Of a stretch of DNA of 64,000 nucleotides, positions 5,046-50,072 are shown piece after piece. Origin of the DNA: Sphingobium sp. SYK-6 (GTDB taxonomy: Bacteria > Pseudomonadota > Alphaproteobacteria > Sphingomonadales > Sphingomonadaceae); contig NC_015976.1 of NCBI RefSeq assembly GCF_000283515.1, positions 1,116,001 through 1,180,000 on the forward strand, in the 5' to 3' direction. Numbering within the stretch: position 1 is the first letter of the stretch; every line of letters starts with the position of its first letter. Under the pieces are notes generated by a model. It was not told where the DNA came from, did not search any database, and worked only from the letters and a program-made list of their open reading frames with translations. Position numbers and translations under genes: made by a program.

Positions 5046-5999
5046 ATGTCAATCGTCAAGACCTACGCCAACGCCGCCGATCCCGCTTCCCCGCTCGACA
5101 TCGCGCCGGTCACCGGTACGATCGGCGCGGAAATCCGGGGCGTCCAGCTCTCCGGAGACCTCGATGCCACCACCGTCCGGGCGATCCAGGATGCCGTGGT
5201 GCGTCACAAGGTCGTCTTTTTCCGTGGCCAGCATCACCTCGACGATGCCGAGCATGAGGCCTTCACGGCGCTGTTCGGCGATCCGGTGGCGCACCCCACC
5301 GTCCCCGTCGCACAGGGCTCGCGCTACCTGCTCGAGCTGGACAGCCGGGAAGGCTATGCCGCATCGAGCTGGCACACCGACGTGACCTTCGTCAATGCCT
5401 ATCCCAAAGGCTCGATCCTGCGGGGTATCACCATCCCGGAGGCCGGCGGCGACACGCTCTGGGCCAATGGCGAGACGGCCTATGACGGCTTGCCCGAGCC
5501 GCTGCGCCAGCTCGTGAACGGTCTCTGGGCCGTGCACACCAATCTCTACGATTATGCAGCGATCCTCGGCAACGCACCCAAGGGGACCGATCAGGAAAAG
5601 GAGCGGCTCAACCAGCACCGTAATGTCTTCGCCTCCACCGTCTACGAGACGGAGCATCCGGTGGTGCGCGTGCACCCCGTCTCGGGCCAGCGCTCGCTGC
5701 TGCTGGGCCATTTCGTGAAGAATTTCGTCGGCCTCAGCCAGGCGGATTCGGCGCGCCTCTTCAACATCCTCCAGGATCATATCACACGGCCCGAGAATAT
5801 CGTGCGCTGGCGCTGGCAGCCGGGCGACGTGGCCTTCTGGGACAATCAGTCCACCCAGCACCGCGCCGTCGCCGATTTCGGCCTGCAGCGCCGCACGCTG
5901 CGCCGCGCCACCATCAATGGCGATGTGCCGGTGAGCATCGACGGACGCACCAGCCGCACCGTCCGCAAGGAAAAGGCGGTTCAGTACGAGCCTGCATGA
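5046..5999 (+). CDS. TauD/TfdA-family 2-oxoglutarate dioxygenase (copy 2)
   Basis: A 317-residue paralogue of the preceding gene. The metal-binding triad is His110 and Asp112 in SSWHTDVTF and His272 in TQHRAVADF, with the 2-oxoglutarate-binding arginine among Arg283-Arg287. It differs from copy 1 by an insertion at about residues 170-195 and a longer basic C-terminal tail, so the two probably accept different substrates. The ribosome-binding site is AAAGGAG. It is co-directional with the sulfatase gene, separated by a strong hairpin. Confidence 0.9.
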   Translation: MSIVKTYANAADPASPLDIAPVTGTIGAEIRGVQLSGDLDATTVRAIQDAVVRHKVVFFRGQHHLDDAEHEAFTALFGDPVAHPTVPVAQGSRYLLELDSREGYAASSWHTDVTFVNAYPKGSILRGITIPEAGGDTLWANGETAYDGLPEPLRQLVNGLWAVHTNLYDYAAILGNAPKGTDQEKERLNQHRNVFASTVYETEHPVVRVHPVSGQRSLLLGHFVKNFVGLSQADSARLFNILQDHITRPENIVRWRWQPGDVAFWDNQSTQHRAVADFGLQRRTLRRATINGDVPVSIDGRTSRTVRKEKAVQYEPA

Positions 6000-6080: not shown

Positions 6081-7727
6081 ATGACTTTCGCCAAGCCGCT
6101 GACGGCGCTCGCTGCCGCTCTGCTCGCGCTCACCGGAACGCCGGCCGATGCTGAAGCGCAGAAGCGCCCCAATTTCCTCATCATCATTGCCGATGACCTG
6201 GGCTATTCCGACATCGGCGCCTTTGGCGGCGAGATCGCGACGCCCAATCTCGACAGGCTCGCGCTCACGGGGCTGCGCCTCACCGGCTTTCACACCGCGC
6301 CCACCTGCTCGCCCACGCGCGCGATGCTGCTCTCGGGCACGGACAATCATCTCGCGGGTCTCGGTTCGATGGCCGAGACGCTCGCACCCAACCAGCGGGG
6401 CAAGCCGGGCTTTGAAGGCTATCTCCGGCCCGATGTCGCCTCCCTCGCCGAGCGCCTCTCGGCCGGCGGCTACCGCACCTTGTTCTCGGGCAAATGGCAT
6501 CTGGGCCTCAAGCCCGAGCAGGATCCGCACGCCCGCGGTTTCCAGCGCAGCTTCGCGCTGCTGCAGGGCGGCCATAATCATTTCGGGCAGGGCCTCTCGA
6601 CCGATCCGGCCAGAGGCGACACCTATACGCTGGACGGCAAGCCCCTCGCCCAGCTCCCGGCCGACTTCTATTCCTCCGATGTCTTTGCGACGAAGCTGAT
6701 CGAGGCACTGAACGGCACCGGTGGCGCGAAGAAGCCCTTCTTTGCTTATCTCGCCTTCACCGCGCCACACTGGCCGCTCCAGGCGCGGCCCGAGGACATC
6801 GCGAAATATCGCGGCCGCTATGATGCCGGGTTCGACGTGCTGCGCGCCCAGCGCCTCAAGCGCCAGCGCGAGCTCGGCCTCATCTCGCCCCAAACGGTCG
6901 CCCACAGCACGAAGGTGCCGCGTGGCCACTGGGATGCGCTGACCGCCGCCGAGCAGCGCCAGGCTGCGCGGGACATGGAAATCTATGCGGCGATGGTCGA
7001 CCGGCTCGACCAGAATGTCGGCCGCGTGCTCGATGCGCTGCGGGCAAGCGGCGAGCTCGACAACACCGTCATCCTCTTCATGGCGGACAATGGCGCGGAA
7101 GGGCTCGACGTGGAAGGCGGGGGCCTCAAATTGCTGGAGGCGCGCCTTGCCAGGGCGGACAACAGCTTTGCCAATCGCGGCACTGCAACCTCCTATGTCG
7201 CTTACGGCCCGGGCTGGGCCCAGGCCGCCACCGCACCTTCCTGGAGCGTCAAGGGCTATGCGACCGAGGGCGGCACGCGCACCGTCTCCTTCCTCAACTG
7301 GCGCGGGATCGCCCGACAGGGCCAGACGAGCAATGCCTTCCTCTCGGTCGCCGACATCGCGCCGACCTTCCTCGATCTTGCCGGCATCGCGCGTGACGGG
7401 ACCAGCTTCGCCGGCCGCGCCGTCCGTCCGATCACCGGCAAGAGCTGGGCGCCCTTCCTCGCGGGCAAGGCGGATCGCGTCTATGGCGTGGAGGAGGCGA
7501 TCGGCACCGAGCTGTTCGGGTCGCGCGCGATCCGCCAAGGCGACTGGAAGATCACCGACCCGGGCGACGGCAAATGGCGCCTCTTCAATCTGGCCGAGGA
7601 TCCCGGGGAGACGCAGGATCTCTCGCTCGCCGAGCCCGAGCGGTTCACGCTGCTCCTCGCCGCATGGGACAGCTATGCCGAGCGCGTCGGCGTGATCCTG
7701 CCCAGCGAAACGCTCTATCGCCCATGA
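6081..7727 (+). CDS. Exported type I sulfatase (arylsulfatase family)
   Basis: A 548-residue sulfatase with a Sec-type signal peptide (about residues 1-26, ending ADAEA). The alkaline-phosphatase-like core begins at RPNFLIIIADDLGYSDIG, where Asp38/Asp39 bind calcium. The modification site is Cys76-Ser-Pro-Thr-Arg80, the CxPxR signature in which cysteine is oxidised to formylglycine. The enzyme hydrolyses sulfate esters in the periplasm. Its stop codon overlaps the start of the formylglycine-generating enzyme gene, so substrate and activator are coupled. The ribosome-binding site is CAGGAAA. Confidence 0.93.
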   Translation: MTFAKPLTALAAALLALTGTPADAEAQKRPNFLIIIADDLGYSDIGAFGGEIATPNLDRLALTGLRLTGFHTAPTCSPTRAMLLSGTDNHLAGLGSMAETLAPNQRGKPGFEGYLRPDVASLAERLSAGGYRTLFSGKWHLGLKPEQDPHARGFQRSFALLQGGHNHFGQGLSTDPARGDTYTLDGKPLAQLPADFYSSDVFATKLIEALNGTGGAKKPFFAYLAFTAPHWPLQARPEDIAKYRGRYDAGFDVLRAQRLKRQRELGLISPQTVAHSTKVPRGHWDALTAAEQRQAARDMEIYAAMVDRLDQNVGRVLDALRASGELDNTVILFMADNGAEGLDVEGGGLKLLEARLARADNSFANRGTATSYVAYGPGWAQAATAPSWSVKGYATEGGTRTVSFLNWRGIARQGQTSNAFLSVADIAPTFLDLAGIARDGTSFAGRAVRPITGKSWAPFLAGKADRVYGVEEAIGTELFGSRAIRQGDWKITDPGDGKWRLFNLAEDPGETQDLSLAEPERFTLLLAAWDSYAERVGVILPSETLYRP

Positions 7728-43679: not shown

Positions 43680-44693
43680 CTATTGGACTGTGAGGAGATG
43701 CGTCCCGTCCGGCCGCTGAACAAAGTTGAGTCGCCGATTCAAAAAGCGCCCGATCACGTCGATCGCCGTTAGACTGTGCTGACTCGGTTTGACCGTCGTA
43801 AAGCTACCCCCGCCTGCGAGCGCGAAGGGGAGCAGCAACTGATCGGCGAGATAAGGACCGGCAAAGGCATTCGATTCCAGATAGCCCCGCATCCGCCCGA
43901 CTGCTTTCTTGGAGACGCGCTCCGCCGTCACACCCAACTGCCCGAAGCCGCTAACGATCTCGGTTCCATGCTCGAACTGAGCTTCGAGCAGCAGAATGTT
44001 GCCCGGGCCCTGATCGTCCGGAAGTTCGCGCACGCAGGCTTCCCGTTCGGACCAGCCGAGATCCCGGCGCACAACATTGATCTCGCGCTCCGCAATCTCA
44101 AACGGCAGGCCGGCAAACAGCGCCTGACCGCTGACGCCCATCAGGGCTCCACGCTCCAAACAGTCGATGGGCTGCAACGGCGCCGGGCTGATGTCCACCT
44201 CGATCCGACCGCCGCCGCGTGGATAGAAGCCATGCCGGACGAGCCGTGCCTCGACGGTCGGTCCCATGCGATTGATGATCGGCAGGAAGCATTTCGCGAT
44301 GAATTCGAACGGCGGGGCGAGCATGTTGTGAGTGCCGCCTTCCAACACCAGCCGCGACGGCGCATCGGCTAGCAAGAGCGGCATCAGCAGCGTCTGGAGG
44401 ACAAGCCCTGTCGATCCCGCCGTGCCAACAGCGAAGTGATACTCATCCGGCACGACCTCGCCCGGCGTGAAGCTGAGGGCGGACGACCCGACATGGAGCC
44501 CCTGGCATTCGGCATTGCCGATGACGCACGCCGCTTCGACCGCCGTCACATGCTGACGCATGAGGCCTGGCTTCGACCGCTTGGCCCGGACATTCTCGAT
44601 GCGGACGGCTTTGCCGGTTACGAGCGAGAGCGCGCACGCATTGCGCACGACCTGCCCGCCGCCTTCGCCTTCCGATCCGTCGATGATAATCAT
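43680..44693 (-). CDS. rtcA: RNA 3'-terminal phosphate cyclase
   Basis: A 337-residue RtcA. It converts RNA 3'-phosphates to 2',3'-cyclic phosphates with ATP, through an enzyme-AMP intermediate. The signatures are IIIDGSEGEGGGQVVRNA at the start, RSKPGLMRQH, GGTHNMLAPPFEF, FYPRGGGRIEVD, the AGPYLADQLLLPFAL block and the catalytic histidine in KPSQHSLTAID. The ATG at 44693 follows GGGGGA; a much longer frame upstream is a shadow of rtcB. Last gene of the rsr-Y RNA-rtcB-rtcA operon, 26 bases after rtcB. Confidence 0.96.
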   Translation of the reverse strand: MIIIDGSEGEGGGQVVRNACALSLVTGKAVRIENVRAKRSKPGLMRQHVTAVEAACVIGNAECQGLHVGSSALSFTPGEVVPDEYHFAVGTAGSTGLVLQTLLMPLLLADAPSRLVLEGGTHNMLAPPFEFIAKCFLPIINRMGPTVEARLVRHGFYPRGGGRIEVDISPAPLQPIDCLERGALMGVSGQALFAGLPFEIAEREINVVRRDLGWSEREACVRELPDDQGPGNILLLEAQFEHGTEIVSGFGQLGVTAERVSKKAVGRMRGYLESNAFAGPYLADQLLLPFALAGGGSFTTVKPSQHSLTAIDVIGRFLNRRLNFVQRPDGTHLLTVQ

Positions 44694-44719: not shown

Positions 44720-45946
44720 TTACCCCTTCACGCACACCACCTGTTTCAACGTATGGACGATCTCCACCAGATCGGCCTGGGCGGCCATCACGGCTTCGAT
44801 CGACTTGTAAGCCTTGGGCGTCTCGTCGATGACGCTCTCGTCCTTGCGGCACTCGACGCCCGCCGTATCGGCGATATGCTCGTCGAGCGAGACCAGCTTC
44901 TTCGCTTGGGTGCGGGACATCACCCGCCCCGCGCCATGGCTGCAGCTCTCGAACGACTCCGCATTGCCCAGACCGCGCACGATGAACGATTTCGCGCCCA
45001 TCGAGCCCGGAATGATGCCCATCGTGCCTTTCGCCGCGCGCACCGCGCCCTTGCGGGGCACGAGCACATTCTCGCCGAAATGGTTTTCCCGCGTCACATA
45101 GTTGTGATGGCAGTTCACCGCTTCGAGCTCGGCGTCGAAAGGCCTGGCGATCTGGCCGCGCAGCGCCCGGATCACATTGGTCATCATCATCCGGCGGTTC
45201 AGCGCCGCGAAGTCCTGCGCCCATTCCACCGCCTCGACATAGTCATCGAAATGGTCGGTCCCTTCCGGGAAGTAGGCGAGATCCTCGTCGGGCAGGTTGA
45301 TGAACCACTTGCGCATGTCCTGCTTGGCCAGCTCGATGAAGAACGTGCCGATCGCATTCCCCACGCCGCGCGAGCCCGAGTGCAGCATTACCCACACTTG
45401 GCTGGAGGTATCGAGGCAAAGCTCGATGAAGTGGTTGCCCGTTCCCAGCGTCCCGAGATGGGTGAGCTGGTTCGTGTTCTTGAACCGCGGATATTTGGCC
45501 GTGATCCGATCGAACCGCTCCACGAGCGTGGCCCAGGCCGCCACAATCTCGGCCGGCGGGTCGCCCCACGAACCGATATCGCGCTTGCCGCGATTGACGC
45601 TGCGCCCATGCGGCACCGCCCGTTCGATGGCCGAGCGGATGCCTTCCAGATTGTCTGGCAGATCGCTCGCCATCAGCGAGGTGCGCGCCGCCATCATGCC
45701 GCAGCCGATGTCCACACCTACAGCCGCCGGGATCACCGCGCCCTTGGTGGGGATCACTGAACCTACGGTCGCGCCGATACCGACATGTACGTCCGGCATG
45801 GCCGCCACATGCTTGAACACGAAAGGCATGCGCGCCGCCTTGCGGAGCTGCTCATGCGCCTTCTCATCCACCGGCACACCGCGCGTCCAAAGCTTGATCG
45901 GCTTGCCGCCCTCAACGTGCTGAAAATCAAAATTCGTCTCGGTCAT
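44720..45946 (-). CDS. rtcB: RNA-splicing ligase RtcB
   Basis: A 408-residue GTP-dependent RNA ligase that joins 2',3'-cyclic phosphate (or 3'-phosphate) to 5'-OH ends and thus repairs cleaved tRNAs. Metal ligands are in AAVGVDIGCGM, WVMLHSGSRGVGN and EAVNCHHNYV; the GMP-accepting histidine is in FESCSHGAGRVMSR. GGGAGGTA lies just before; the ATG at 45946 is chosen over an adjacent in-frame GTG. It begins 27 bases after the last of four Y RNA-like elements. Confidence 0.97.
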   Translation of the reverse strand: MTETNFDFQHVEGGKPIKLWTRGVPVDEKAHEQLRKAARMPFVFKHVAAMPDVHVGIGATVGSVIPTKGAVIPAAVGVDIGCGMMAARTSLMASDLPDNLEGIRSAIERAVPHGRSVNRGKRDIGSWGDPPAEIVAAWATLVERFDRITAKYPRFKNTNQLTHLGTLGTGNHFIELCLDTSSQVWVMLHSGSRGVGNAIGTFFIELAKQDMRKWFINLPDEDLAYFPEGTDHFDDYVEAVEWAQDFAALNRRMMMTNVIRALRGQIARPFDAELEAVNCHHNYVTRENHFGENVLVPRKGAVRAAKGTMGIIPGSMGAKSFIVRGLGNAESFESCSHGAGRVMSRTQAKKLVSLDEHIADTAGVECRKDESVIDETPKAYKSIEAVMAAQADLVEIVHTLKQVVCVKG

Positions 45947-45972
45947 CACTACCTCCCTTGCATAATCATGGT

Positions 45973-46087
45973 GCCGGCGACGAGATTTGGCGAGACATCC
46001 CAGAGCATCCTGGCGGATTGCTCTGGGGCGGATTCGAACCGCTTGGCCTTTCGGCTTTACCGTGTAGTCCCGCCGGCATTCGCCAGC
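45973..46087 (-). ncRNA. Y RNA-like (Yrl) element 4, short
   Basis: The ends pair: GCTGGCGA at the 5' side with TCGCCGGC at the 3' side (8 bp, one G-U). It has the shared 5' motif GGCGAATGCC and then GGGACTACA, a T arm (GCGG-TTCGAAT-CCGC, 46028-46042) and a perfect 8-bp acceptor-like hairpin CCCAGAGC/GCTCTGGG (45999-46006 with 46020-46027) closed by a 13-base loop. No D arm follows, so this copy is reduced. It ends just before the rtcB ribosome-binding site. Confidence 0.75.
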
Positions 46088-46099
46088 TTGTATTCATTT

Positions 46100-46249
46100 C
46101 ACGGCGACGAGGTTTTGACAGATTTCTCTCCGTCCTCGTGGACGGTCCCTGTGCTATCGTTACACTACGAACCGATTGGGCGGTCCGGCGGGATTCGAAC
46201 CCGCATCTGGGGCGTTGAAGGCCATGTAGTCCGTCAGGCATTCGCCATG
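46100..46249 (-). ncRNA. Y RNA-like (Yrl) element 3 with permuted tRNA domain
   Basis: Terminal stem CATGGCGA with TCGCCGTG (8 bp). After the shared GGCGAATGCC-GGACTACA motif comes a T arm (GCGGG-TTCGAAT-CCCGC, 46188-46204). Next are CGGACCG and CGGTTCG separated by CCCAAT, a 7-bp acceptor stem closed by a six-base loop. Then TA and a D-arm-like GTGT-AACGATA-GCAC follow. The order is that of a circularly permuted tRNA; the D loop lacks the GG pair. Confidence 0.8.
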
Positions 46250-46265
46250 GTTTTTGCATTTCGGG

Positions 46266-46408
46266 TCACGGCGACGAGAAGTGAGAAAGACCGTCCCGAG
46301 GGACTGGCGCTCTATCCAGCTGAGCTACTGTATCGTTGCCGATACAGGCGGGACTTGAACCCGCGACAACCACATTACCAATGTAGTCCTTCTCGGCATT
46401 CGCCGTGA
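46266..46408 (-). ncRNA. Y RNA-like (Yrl) element 2 with permuted tRNA domain
   Basis: The best-preserved copy. Terminal stem TCACGGCGA with TCGCCGTGA (9 bp, perfect). The tRNA-like part reads: T arm GCGGG-TTCAAGT-CCCGC (46348-46364), 3' acceptor strand CTGTATC, six-base loop GGCAAC, 5' acceptor strand GATACAG (perfect 7 bp), linker TA, then D arm GCTC-AGCTGGATA-GAGC with the GG of a true D loop. This is tRNA nucleotides 49-72 joined to 1-25. Confidence 0.85.
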
Positions 46409-46418
46409 TATTCTGGTG

Positions 46419-46581
46419 GGGTCGTGACGACGAGGTTCGGCAAGACGCGGCCCTTAAGCTACGTGTCGGCGGCGGGGTTCGAACCCGCATCTCCCTTTCG
46501 GCACAACTGCCTTCCGGGCGCTTTACTCGTCGGGCCTCGTGGTTTGGAGACATGTAGTCCTGCCAGCATTCGCCACGACCC
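46419..46581 (-). ncRNA. Y RNA-like (Yrl) element 1
   Basis: It starts 8 bases after the rsr stop codon. Terminal stem GGGTCGTGGCGA with TCGTCACGACCC (12 bp, one G-U), the 5' motif GGCGAATGC and GGACTACA, and a T arm GCGGG-TTCGAAC-CCCGC (46472-46488). The acceptor and D parts are degenerate (a TAGC and GGGC segment follow without a clean 7-bp stem). At 163 bases it is the longest copy; its extra length lies before the T arm. Confidence 0.75.
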
Positions 46582-46588
46582 TGTTCGT

Positions 46589-48136
46589 TCAGACCTCCAC
46601 TTGTTCGACGATGCTCACCCAATCCTGCGTTTCGCCGGAGACGAAGCGCGCAATGGTATCGAACACCGCGTCGGAGAAGCCTCCGACATTCAATATGTCC
46701 TGCCGGCTGGCGGCCTGGGTGGTGCCGTAGGGCGCGATGTCGATGCAGACGAGCTTGGCTTGCGGGTAGCGCTTCGCCAGTTTCGTCCACTCATGCATCG
46801 TCGCCGTCGAGCCGCTCCGCTGCGCATCGACCCAGGACTCATTGTCCGAGACGATAACCACCAGATCGACCGCCGCCTTCTCCTTGTTGAGGAGTGCGAG
46901 GGGCGCCGAGACATTCGTCCCGCCACCGCCGACCGCCGCGAACTTCGCGGCGTTCACCGCAATCCGGTCGGTAGCCTTCAGCGTCACCGGCACGACCGCC
47001 TGCTCGAAGGGGATGACACGCGCCTGACGGTTGGACCGCAACATCGCCGCCGCGACCAGAGCCGCGACATCGATGCAGCGAACCTTGGACGAAGCGCCCT
47101 TGCGGTAGCCCGTCACCGGCCACTGCATCGAACCCGACACGTCGGGGCAGACGACCACGCGGCCCGGCACTTGTCGAACGCCCCGGAGCGACAGCTCCAG
47201 TGCTTCCTCTAGCGCCGCCTGCACCTTGAGCGGCACACCGTCGCCAACCTGTCCTAATGCCACCATCAACTGATAGGGCATGGGCCGCACGGCACGGAGC
47301 GCATCGCGGTCGGCAAGCCGGGCCGCGACCTGATCGGCAAACCCCTCCACCCCGAACGCGCCATTGCGCGCCAGCGTGTTAAGGTTCATCCGCAGCGCCT
47401 GCCAGCCCATGCGGCCAGCAAGCTCCGCCCACTGCTCCGCGACAAGCGGATAAGCGGTCAGCCACTCGAACGGCACCTGCGGCAGCGGTAGCGTCCGGTC
47501 CTGCTTCCAGGCCTCGAACGCGGCGATCTCGACGGGCAGAGCGGCGACGTCATAGGGACGACCGATCAGCCAGCCATAGAAAGCCTTGCGCTCCACATCC
47601 GCCGGGCGTGCGTGGACCATCTTGACGATGTCCGCCAGGCTCGGCGAATTACCGGTCGCGGCCTGCATCAGGTCACGGATCGACGCCTGCTCCAGCCACT
47701 GCTGCACCAAGCGCTTCGGCCGCGTGCCGAGCGACGTCCGCCCGACCTGACCAGACCGAATGATCTGCACAAAGCTGCGCAGCATACGGCCGTTATTCAC
47801 GACCTTACCGAACACCCGAACCGCGAGGTCGGGATCCGCAACCGTCAGATAGGCCGCCAGCAAGGCCGGCATATCCTTCATCGCGCCGGACGTGCGGGCA
47901 TAGACCGCAGCTTGGGCGACGAAATATGGATCGACCGCGCGGGCCGCGTCCAGCACATCGGCAAGCTGCGTCTCCGCCGCGCCGTAGAAATTATCGGCCA
48001 GCGTGCCGGTCGCCGCCAACTGGGCGAGCTTTGCCTTCGGCCCGTAGGCGTAGGCCGGCGCACCCTCCCGGTTCACCGTATCGGTGCGCGGCAACAGCTT
48101 CGCCACGGCGCTCGCAAACAGTCCCTTGTTGGCCAT
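46589..48136 (-). CDS. rsr: Rsr, bacterial Ro60 orthologue (TROVE + vWA domains)
   Basis: A 515-residue Ro60-type protein. The TROVE ring domain of helical repeats covers about 1-320, and a von Willebrand A domain follows with the metal-site motif Asp332-Val-Ser-Gly-Ser336 in VCPDVSGSMQWP. Ro60 proteins bind Y RNAs and misfolded RNA ends and can recruit the nuclease PNPase. The ATG at 48136 follows GAGGAG. It is the first protein gene of an operon with four Y RNA-like elements, rtcB and rtcA. A tRNA-like element ends 17 bases before its start codon. Confidence 0.95.
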   Translation of the reverse strand: MANKGLFASAVAKLLPRTDTVNREGAPAYAYGPKAKLAQLAATGTLADNFYGAAETQLADVLDAARAVDPYFVAQAAVYARTSGAMKDMPALLAAYLTVADPDLAVRVFGKVVNNGRMLRSFVQIIRSGQVGRTSLGTRPKRLVQQWLEQASIRDLMQAATGNSPSLADIVKMVHARPADVERKAFYGWLIGRPYDVAALPVEIAAFEAWKQDRTLPLPQVPFEWLTAYPLVAEQWAELAGRMGWQALRMNLNTLARNGAFGVEGFADQVAARLADRDALRAVRPMPYQLMVALGQVGDGVPLKVQAALEEALELSLRGVRQVPGRVVVCPDVSGSMQWPVTGYRKGASSKVRCIDVAALVAAAMLRSNRQARVIPFEQAVVPVTLKATDRIAVNAAKFAAVGGGGTNVSAPLALLNKEKAAVDLVVIVSDNESWVDAQRSGSTATMHEWTKLAKRYPQAKLVCIDIAPYGTTQAASRQDILNVGGFSDAVFDTIARFVSGETQDWVSIVEQVEV

Positions 48137-48152
48137 CGTCCAACTCCTCATC

Positions 48153-48230
48153 TGGTCAGGGCGGCAGGATTTGAACCTGCGACCTCCTGCTCCCAAGGCA
48201 GGCGCTCTGCGCAGACTGAGCTACGCCCTG
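48153..48230 (-). ncRNA. tRNA-Pro(UGG)-like element in the rsr leader
   Basis: A conventional-order cloverleaf. Acceptor CAGGGCG pairs perfectly with CGCCCTG, followed by discriminator A and an encoded CCA. D stem is GCTC/GAGC, anticodon arm CCTGC-CTTGGGA-GCAGG (anticodon TGG) and T arm GCAGG-TTCAAAT-CCTGC. C1-G72 and A73 are the identity marks of bacterial tRNA-Pro. The D loop AGTCTGCGCA lacks the G18-G19 pair, so tertiary folding would be impaired. It lies between the sigma-54 promoter and rsr and is presumably co-transcribed. It could be a real but weak tRNA gene; I favour a mimic. Confidence 0.75.
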
Positions 48231-48323: not shown

Positions 48324-48340
48324 TGCATGGGGCGTGCCAA
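48324..48340 (-). promoter_or_regulatory. Sigma-54 promoter of the rsr-Y RNA-rtcBA operon
   Basis: TTGGCACGCCCCATGCA on the minus strand carries GG at -24 and GC at -12 with exact spacing, matching YTGGCACGNNNNTTGCW at all key positions. The predicted transcript starts around 48312 and includes the tRNA-Pro-like element, rsr, the Y RNA-like elements, rtcB and rtcA. The divergently encoded RtcR is a sigma-54 activator, so factor and promoter agree. Confidence 0.88.
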
Positions 48341-48476
48341 ATCATCAAAGCGAGATCAAAAGACCTCACATATTATTGATTTTATTATTCGAATTTTTAT
48401 GAATGTCGAAGGTTTCAAAGTCTGAACCACGAAAAATATGATCGCTTAGGATAGGAATTTATCCTATAATATAAGA

Positions 48477-50072
48477 ATGAAACCATTGACCGTGATCGGC
48501 TTCCTCGGCTCGACCCTTGATGCCAGTAAGTTCGGGCCATCGCGCTGGAACAAGTGGCGACCAACAGTCGCGCTGACCATGCATGAGGACCTGCGGGTCG
48601 ATCGACTGGTGCTGCTTCATGGCACCACCCATCGCCGCCTCGCCGAATATGTCGCGGAGGATATCGCTTCGGTCTCGCCGGAGACGCAGGTCGATATGCG
48701 CGTCCTCGATTTCCGTGACCCATGGGACTTCGAGGAAGTCTATGGAAAGCTGCTCGACTTCGCGCGTGCCGAACCGTTCGACCCGGACGAGCAGGATTAT
48801 CTCCTCCACATCACCACCGGCACGCACGTCGCGCAGATCTGCCTCTTCCTGCTGACCGAGGCGCGATACCTGCCCGGGCGCCTGCTCCAGACCCAGCCGG
48901 CCAAGCGCGCCGAGGATGGTGGGGCGCCGGGTCGCTGGAGCATCATCGACCTCGACCTGTCGCGTTACGACAGCATCGCCACCCGTTTCGCCGTCGCGAG
49001 CGCGGAGAGCACCTCCTTCCTCAAGTCCGGCATCGACACGCGCAATGCCGCCTTCAACCACATGATCGACGAGATCGAGCAAGTGGCACTGCGCTCGCGA
49101 GCGCCGGTGCTCCTGATGGGGCCGACCGGCGCCGGCAAGAGCCAACTCGCCCGGCGCATCTACGAGCTGAAGAAGGCCAAACATCAGATTGCCGGGCCTT
49201 TCGTTGAAGTGAACTGCGCGACCCTGAAGGGCGACAGCGCGATGTCGGCACTGTTCGGTCACCGCAAGGGCGCCTTTACCGGCGCGGTCGCTGACCGGCC
49301 TGGCCTGTTACGCTCCGCCGACAAGGGCATGCTGTTCCTGGACGAGATCGGCGAACTGGGCCTCGACGAACAGGCGATGATCTTGCGCGCCATCGAGGAC
49401 AAGCGCTTCCTACCCGTCGGCGCGGACAAGGAGGTCGCGTCCGACTTCCAGCTGATCGCGGGTACCAATCGCGACCTCGGCGAGGCGGTGGCGGCGGGTA
49501 TATTCCGCGACGACCTTTACGCTCGCCTCAACTTGTGGACCTTCCGCCTGCCCGGCCTTGCCGATAGGCGCGAGGATATCGAGCCCAATCTCGACTATGA
49601 ACTGGATCGCTTCGCCGAACGCGAGGGCGATCAGGCCAGCTTCAACAAGGAAGCGCGCCAGCGCTACCTCGCCTTCGCGACATCGGGCGAGGCGCGATGG
49701 CCCGGCAATTTCCGCGACCTCGCCGCCAGCGTGACACGCATGGCCACGCTCAGCCCAAAGGGGCGGATCGATGTGGACTGCGTCGACAAGGAGATCGAGC
49801 GATTGCGGCGACTCTGGTCAGCTCAGCCCGATGGCGCCGCCGATAGCCTCTCCGAGATTATGGATGAGAACCAGATCGCCGAACTCGATCTGTTCGATCG
49901 CGTCCAACTCGCCGAGGTCGCACGGGTGTGCCGCTCTAGCCGCTCGTTGTCGGAAGCAGGACGAACGTTGTTCAACGCATCACGCATCCGCCGCAGTAGC
50001 TCAAACGACGCTGATCGCTTGCGGAAGTATCTCGCGCGGTTCGGGCTGGATTGGTCGACGGTCGGAGAATGA
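48477..50072 (+). CDS. rtcR: RtcR, CARF-domain sigma-54-dependent activator
   Basis: A 531-residue regulator. The N-terminal CARF domain (about 1-180, with LTVIGFLGSTLD and the LLHITTGTHVAQICLFLL strand) senses RNA ends. The AAA+ ATPase has Walker A GPTGAGKS (215-222), the sigma-54-contacting GAFTGA loop (265-270) and Walker B MLFLDEIGEL; a short helical DNA-binding region closes the protein. In enterobacteria RtcR is switched on by cleaved tRNA fragments. Divergent from the operon it should control. Confidence 0.95.
   Translation: MKPLTVIGFLGSTLDASKFGPSRWNKWRPTVALTMHEDLRVDRLVLLHGTTHRRLAEYVAEDIASVSPETQVDMRVLDFRDPWDFEEVYGKLLDFARAEPFDPDEQDYLLHITTGTHVAQICLFLLTEARYLPGRLLQTQPAKRAEDGGAPGRWSIIDLDLSRYDSIATRFAVASAESTSFLKSGIDTRNAAFNHMIDEIEQVALRSRAPVLLMGPTGAGKSQLARRIYELKKAKHQIAGPFVEVNCATLKGDSAMSALFGHRKGAFTGAVADRPGLLRSADKGMLFLDEIGELGLDEQAMILRAIEDKRFLPVGADKEVASDFQLIAGTNRDLGEAVAAGIFRDDLYARLNLWTFRLPGLADRREDIEPNLDYELDRFAEREGDQASFNKEARQRYLAFATSGEARWPGNFRDLAASVTRMATLSPKGRIDVDCVDKEIERLRRLWSAQPDGAADSLSEIMDENQIAELDLFDRVQLAEVARVCRSSRSLSEAGRTLFNASRIRRSSSNDADRLRKYLARFGLDWSTVGE

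Follow-up and report, generated by a model that had tools for sequence, protein, structure and literature searches.

What do the four tandem Y RNA-like elements between rsr and rtcB of Sphingobium sp. SYK-6 represent: one tRNA-like RNA with its decayed copies, or a set of different RNAs? To answer this, we compared the array, found in a 64,000-nucleotide stretch of the genome (the window; all coordinates refer to it), with the surroundings of rsr in 80 GTDB genomes, most of them alphaproteobacterial, and with tRNA and Y RNA models.

The genes around the array were arranged in the order sigma54-type site, rsr, four-unit array, rtcB and rtcA, with rtcR located divergently (Table 1). The product of rsr also gave a profile match to the Deinococcus Rsr structure (PDB 2nvo, E 1.1e-24). 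Because rsr, rtcB, rtcA, a divergent rtcR and a sigma54-type site occur together, the setting is that of an RtcR-controlled RNA-repair operon, all of whose defining members (rtcR, the sigma54-type site, rtcB and rtcA) were present at the locus. TGGCAC-type sites were found upstream of rsr in 63 of the 80 loci. The Salmonella operon has been described with two Y RNAs. It shares with the window the divergent rtcR, the sigma54-type site, rsr, the Y RNAs, rtcB and rtcA, whereas the window has four units with two topologies in place of the two named Y RNAs and, unlike the Salmonella operon, a tRNA-Pro-like gene before rsr. Control of an RNA-repair operon by RtcR is known from Salmonella, and the activators of RtcR are tRNA 5' fragments with a 2',3'-cyclic phosphate end (PMC7790460).

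The tRNA-Pro(UGG)-like gene has a D loop (AGTCTGCGCA) without G18G19. An equivalent gene was observed between promoter and rsr in about 12 of the 80 loci; a tRNA-Pro-like gene was located after the array in locus L056 and had an anticodon-loop insertion in locus L054, and a Trp-like tRNA gene took its place in loci L061 and L063. Such a gene may serve as a co-induced replacement or as a sentinel tRNA.

Table 1 Features of the rsr-rtcBA locus, with positions in the window
Feature	Position	Strand	Evidence
rtcA, RNA 3'-phosphate cyclase	43680-44693	-	PRK04204 408.6 bits, above cut-off
rtcB, RNA ligase	44720-45946	-	Pfam RtcB 427.6 bits
Unit 4, class D3 (reduced D2), D stem lost	45968-46090	-	D2 model 69.4 bits, E 1.2e-19; Rfam YrlA 34.3 bits, E 1e-4 (45971-46086)
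Unit 4, acceptor hairpin	45999-46027	-
Unit 4, T arm	46028-46042	-
Unit 4, GG strand and GCC-GAAA-GGC hairpin	46046-46061	-
Unit 3, class A, YrlA topology	46095-46252	-	Rfam YrlA 44.5 bits, E 1.1e-7 (46098-46248); descriptor search
Unit 3, TA and D arm	46151-46167	-
Unit 3, acceptor hairpin	46168-46187	-
Unit 3, T arm	46188-46204	-
Unit 2, class A, YrlA topology	46262-46410	-	Rfam YrlA 52.0 bits, E 7.7e-10 (46265-46406); descriptor search
Unit 2, TA and D arm	46309-46327	-
Unit 2, acceptor hairpin	46328-46347	-
Unit 2, T arm	46348-46364	-
Unit 1, class D1, Y RNA-like with tRNA permuted in the D loop	46418-46580	-	R2 (D1 model) 150.8 bits, E 6.8e-27; Rfam YrlA 26.7 bits, E 0.016 (46421-46576)
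Unit 1, TA (8-9), D-stem 5' strand GCTT, then AAGG	46452-46461	-
Unit 1, acceptor stub, 2 bp and 6-nt loop (CG-CCGACA-CG)	46462-46471	-
Unit 1, T arm GCGGG-TTCGAAC-CCCGC	46472-46488	-	Sequence; helix 6 of D1 covariation
Unit 1, anticodon-arm-like hairpin (CCC...GGG), then AG(AT)	46491-46521	-	Covariation
Unit 1, GAGTAAAGC, D-loop end (A21) and D-stem 3' strand AAGC	46520-46528	-	Pairs with GCTT in 46452-46461
rsr, Ro60 orthologue	46589-48136	-	vWA_Ro60 70.1 bits; TROVE 24.1 bits (cut-off 23)
tRNA-Pro(UGG)-like gene, between sigma54-type promoter and rsr	48153-48230	-	ARAGORN; Rfam tRNA 68.7 bits
Sigma54-type promoter TTTGGCACGCCCCATGCA	48324-48341	-	GG-N10-GC site
rtcR, sigma54-dependent activator, divergent	48477-50072	+	NF038308 841.1 bits, above cut-off

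The four units, all on the minus strand and all encoded beside the Ro60 orthologue as is expected of Y RNAs, carry GGCGAATGC...GGACTAC at the 5' end and CGTCGCC or CGTCGTC at the 3' end. The pair of ends that marks a Y RNA, GGCGAATGC...GTCG, was found in 4 of 4 units, and the outer stem formed by the ends covaries. An earlier note on this DNA had described the 5' motifs, together with paired ends of differing sequence and T arms, and they are present as claimed. The search with a YrlA covariance model that it had proposed as a check matched all four units at 26.7-52.0 bits, and the presence of four Y RNA-like elements between rsr and rtcB was borne out, with none of the four reaching the gathering score of 69 of Rfam YrlA (RF02553). 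Further copies of the units were not found in a search of the whole genome, and ARAGORN reported no tRNA in 45968-46580. The units are not built as tRNA genes, with their acceptors closed and the anticodon loop absent. Protein-coding content was rejected, the ORFs across the units overlapping on both strands, and chance repeats were likewise rejected as their origin.

In units 2 and 3, the T arm is followed by a closed acceptor hairpin of 7 bp with a 6-nt loop, then by TA and the D arm, which is the arm order of YrlA. The circularly permuted tRNA domains that had been noticed in these two units, with acceptor hairpins and D arms, were recovered by both the Rfam YrlA model and the descriptor search. 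This permutation is not new: the circular permutation of YrlA relative to tRNA has been published from the Salmonella structure 6CU1 (PMC11472068). Since their scores are below 69, we named units 2 and 3 YrlA-type (class A) and did not file them under RF02553; class A relatives in loci L056 and L066 exceed this gathering score. The Rsr-type outer stem (GGCGAATGC / GTCGCC) and the place beside rsr are shared between YrlA and the units of the window in general. Besides YrlA, Rfam contains the headless YrlB (RF02565), which in enterobacteria is the second Y RNA of the YrlA operon. YrlB shares the outer stem, but it is short and without any tRNA-like part (for example, locus L177 719-796, 105.5 bits), and the window contains no such unit.

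Several observations were made on YrlA-type units of other loci. The D arms of unit 2 of locus L015 and unit 1 of locus L017 resemble those of Leu and Glu tRNA, and the former unit also has a long variable arm resembling tRNA, so that the heads of these two loci seem to copy different isotypes. In locus L056, an above-cut-off call of the Rfam tRNA model (5809-5950, 34.7 bits) spans two adjacent Y RNA units and is likely to cause a tRNA to be annotated falsely.

Unit 1 does not follow the YrlA order, since its D arm is split and an anticodon-like arm precedes the T arm. From the 5' side it reads AAGC, anticodon-like hairpin, AGAT, T arm, 2-bp acceptor stub, TA and GCTT, that is, D-3' strand, anticodon-like arm, T arm, acceptor stub and D-5' strand, the arrangement of a tRNA opened in the D loop that we termed class D1. 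A D1 covariance model built without the window unit or its nearest relative (R2) gave 150.8 bits for unit 1 and 33-40 bits for units 2, 3 and 4. Unit 1 had been called degenerate, which was wrong: it is a member of a conserved class whose arms are ordered differently. Nor was support found for the supposition that the four units are one kind in graded states of tRNA likeness, as units 1 and 4 go with a second topology.

Comparative analysis of D1 supported this topology. Across 35 units and 37 pairs, 96.8% of the cells were paired and 22 pairs showed double changes, and the covariation held also when the window unit was left out of the alignment. Double changes were observed in 5 of 5 modelled pairs of the anticodon-like arm (one of them CG in 12 units and GC in 11) and in two pairs of the acceptor stub (D1 alignment A3). 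The D stem was paired in 35 of 35 units, and the alternative pairing GAGT/GCTT, fully paired in 28 of the 35, was therefore rejected in favour of AAGC/GCTT. In a larger set of 51 units the D-stem types were GCTT/AAGC (34), GCTC/GAGC (12) and GCAT/ATGC (3), a small number of changes, some of them shared through common descent. Thermodynamic folding was unfavourable: the D stem had a probability of 0.01 in the single-sequence fold of unit 1, the fold forced to contain it was 3.4 kcal/mol higher than the minimum (-60.0 versus -63.4 kcal/mol), and RNAalifold on D1 preferred a different local pairing. The comparative evidence outweighs these folds, and the D-loop-opened structure appears well supported by the aligned sequences.

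A fuller D-loop-opened form, class D2, has a longer acceptor, usually of 5 bp with a tetraloop, and in most cases an anticodon arm closed by a short loop; in effect it consists of tRNA bases 18-72 followed by bases 1-15. In the D2 alignment (A2, 31 units, 36 pairs), 96.8% of the cells were paired and 20 pairs had double changes; 0 of 500 shuffles were as good, a slide by one column lowered pairing to 40-45%, and RNAalifold, with no structure supplied, arrived at the same four-way junction. The tRNA invariants U8, A14, R15, A21, Y48, U54, C56, R57, A58 and Y60 were present in 31 of 31 units and G18G19 in 30 of 31. All 38 D2 units tested aligned better to the real tRNAs of the window genome once they were rotated (mean scores 26.9 rotated, 22.1 unrotated and 11.3 shuffled). 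The anticodon arms carried GNRA, UNCG or CUUG tetraloops in 15 of 31 units and a 7-nt loop in only one. The fold probability of the D stem exceeded 0.5 in 19 of 31 units, and its conservation could be sequence mimicry, because it varies little (two sequences, in the same order). Where tested, D2 units scored only about 27-37 bits with Rfam YrlA. As a separate observation, 9 of the 31 units in A2 are without the universal U55, their T loop reading TCC, which makes pseudouridine 55 impossible there; these nine therefore could not be TruB substrates.

Unit 4 resembles unit 1 in its order, with the anticodon-like arm before the T arm, but it lacks the D arm and so departs from the YrlA order as well. 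The D2 covariance model (R1) matched it at 69.4 bits, compared with 34.3 for YrlA, while its D-stem strands are not kept; we treated it as a reduced form, and it looks like a reduced D2. For units 2 and 3, R1 gave 42.5 and 39.3 bits, below the YrlA scores of 52.0 and 44.5. By the R1 and R2 scores set against those of YrlA, units 1 and 4 group with the D-opened class and units 2 and 3 with YrlA. The earlier note had correctly seen in unit 4 an acceptor hairpin and a T arm without a D arm, and had missed the GCC-GAAA-GGC hairpin.

We then asked how widely these forms are distributed. Most rsr loci fetched contained 2-6 units per array. As this is what rsr loci of Alphaproteobacteria generally show, four units in an array are ordinary, not unusual as had been thought. 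The usual order in sphingomonads was D1, A, A, followed by either D2 or a reduced form, and the window has D1, A, A, reduced. By a simple classification of 74 scored loci, D1 was found in 45, D2 in 35, either in 53, and either together with class A units in 46, counts of units and loci that are not independent events because the sampled loci are related. The D-loop-opened order also recurred repeatedly in a descriptor search of the loci. In Rhizobiales, D2 was observed for example on a plasmid of Rhizobium johnstonii (111.6 bits, the model having been built without this unit) and in Methylosinus trichosporium (75.6 bits), and it was also present in Rhodospirillales such as Nitrospirillum. R1 matched 344 of 399 genomes in a search of the phylum, but most of these matches, at 30-40 bits, appear to be genuine tRNA genes. 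With D2 restricted to matches above about 90 bits, four genomes remained, all of the same class. The D1 model, run on 385 genomes of the class, matched only the window genome and one other, a rarity that is expected of an element that goes with a sparsely distributed gene. Within the family Sphingomonadaceae, 15 of 301 genomes contained Rsr. Beyond the class but within the phylum, locus L152 has an array of several YrlA-type units and locus L153 a D-opened unit (59.3 bits) that is Leu-like and has a long variable arm. E. coli genomes gave no rsr array, only rtcB being matched. The earlier note had listed a lack of stem conservation in related sphingomonads among the findings that would count against its reading; the outcome favours function, as the D1 and D2 pairs are kept and covary.

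Some further units were also observed. D-loop-opened copies of leucine tRNA, including the long variable arm, are located at 6539-6695 of locus L131 and 1202-1351 of locus L153. Two short records filed as phage contigs (L177 and L178) hold an enterobacterial rsr-array-rtcB locus with YrlB, YrlA and a third unit, which in L177 (920-1040) scored 46.4 bits with R1 and resembles the reduced D-opened form. In an Undibacterium locus (L122, at 6799) and a related MAG (L123, at 6809), a Y RNA-like unit before two YrlA matches carries AACGGTCCTAAGGT(GGTGAA), a near-universal 23S rRNA motif, and in the L122 genome this pattern occurs only in the Y RNA unit and in 23S rRNA. Could this unit be a Y RNA that mimics rRNA?

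Permutation by opening in the D loop is conserved in dozens of relatives and apparently undescribed: it was absent from Rfam and from the literature searched, a search that lay outside the key primary Y RNA papers, where an earlier description is possible. Altogether, the tRNA mimicry of the array looks like a kept set of variants and not like one RNA with decayed copies. Reading from topology, conservation, covariation and operon context, we infer that the units are transcribed, that Rsr binds them and that they have partners, and on balance we favour, with no great confidence, the view that the array encodes four Rsr-binding Y RNAs as part of an RtcR-controlled operon and that these RNAs, by two permutations of tRNA, act as tRNA-shaped adaptors. 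In YrlA, the outer stem binds Rsr and the head binds PNPase, and YrlA is a substrate of DusA and TruB (PMC8394870). By the proposed working, tRNA damage would activate RtcR through tRNA fragments and switch the operon on, and Rsr would grip each Y RNA by its outer stem. Class A units are opened where the anticodon arm would be, the outer stem replacing that arm; unit 1 and, as a reduced version, unit 4 have the opening in the D loop, and therefore their Rsr-binding stem would exit at the elbow, with the anticodon-like arm kept. The heads could not be charged or cut like a tRNA, since their acceptor end is not free and the anticodon loop is usually missing. They may instead dock elbow-binding proteins such as PNPase or tRNA-modifying enzymes on the Ro ring, different heads recruiting different partners, and tRNA-binding enzymes might thereby work on the Ro ring or be kept away from tRNA.

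The main rival is that the heads are decoys, tRNA mimics without a cleavage site that hold an anticodon nuclease or another tRNA-attacking enzyme while RtcBA repairs. It would explain why anticodon arms are kept with their loops replaced, often by stable tetraloops, and why several isotypes are copied, with L131 and L153 carrying Leu-like heads that include a long variable arm. The same role has already been suggested for YrlA; no YrlA fragments were observed while an SOS-dependent nuclease was active (PMC7790460). We nevertheless consider it unlikely, as class A heads are entirely without an anticodon arm, no nuclease partner is known, and the conserved Rsr-binding stem is left unexplained. 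Less probable still is that the units are gates only, with an Rsr-binding stem that closes the Ro ring, heads that are loosely selected bulk, and units 1 and 4 decaying copies of YrlA. The outer-stem motif is indeed the most constant part, and some array units, the YrlB-type one of L177 among them, entirely lack a tRNA-like part; yet the tRNA invariants are kept and the head pairs covary in D1 and D2, with which decayed heads are hard to square, and decay cannot explain the classes because arm order differs between them.

We give little credence to a third possibility, that the units are substrates of the adjoining RtcB, circularised for example at their paired ends into stable RNA circles. 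The ends are paired over 8-12 bp, and permuted tRNA genes of some algae mature via circles, a precedent for such a route, but neither a cleavage nor a ligation site is apparent in the sequence. Maturation of the units as permuted genes into working tRNAs was rejected as highly improbable, even though rotated sequences align with real tRNAs and ARAGORN calls a tRNA, with the 7-nt loop CTTTTAC, inside one D2 unit of L061, because the acceptor ends are closed by short loops (unit 1 having an acceptor of only 2 bp), no CCA end is present and anticodon loops are almost absent. The permuted tRNA genes of algae and archaea likewise have rearranged tRNA arms; the window units differ from them in having no CCA end, normally no anticodon loop, and in being enclosed in a Y stem.

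We would put at about an even chance the more general proposition that bacterial Y RNAs mimic tRNA in two topologies, anticodon-opened and D-loop-opened, placed side by side within an operon as a matched set in which class A presents the acceptor half, D1 the anticodon half and D2 the whole body, so that several adaptors could be loaded on one kind of Ro ring. In the second permutation the tRNA invariants are kept, but an anticodon loop is usually absent, as is a free acceptor end; this points to selection for the tRNA shape as such. Current RNA-family models miss the D-loop-opened class, which is present in most of the rsr loci scored. The units would be natural constructs that show different tRNA faces on one Rsr-type stem, and the partner of each face would be addressable by pull-down. 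If the general proposition is true, heads that copy other RNA, such as the 23S rRNA motif in Undibacterium, would extend it to a general toolkit of RNA mimics.
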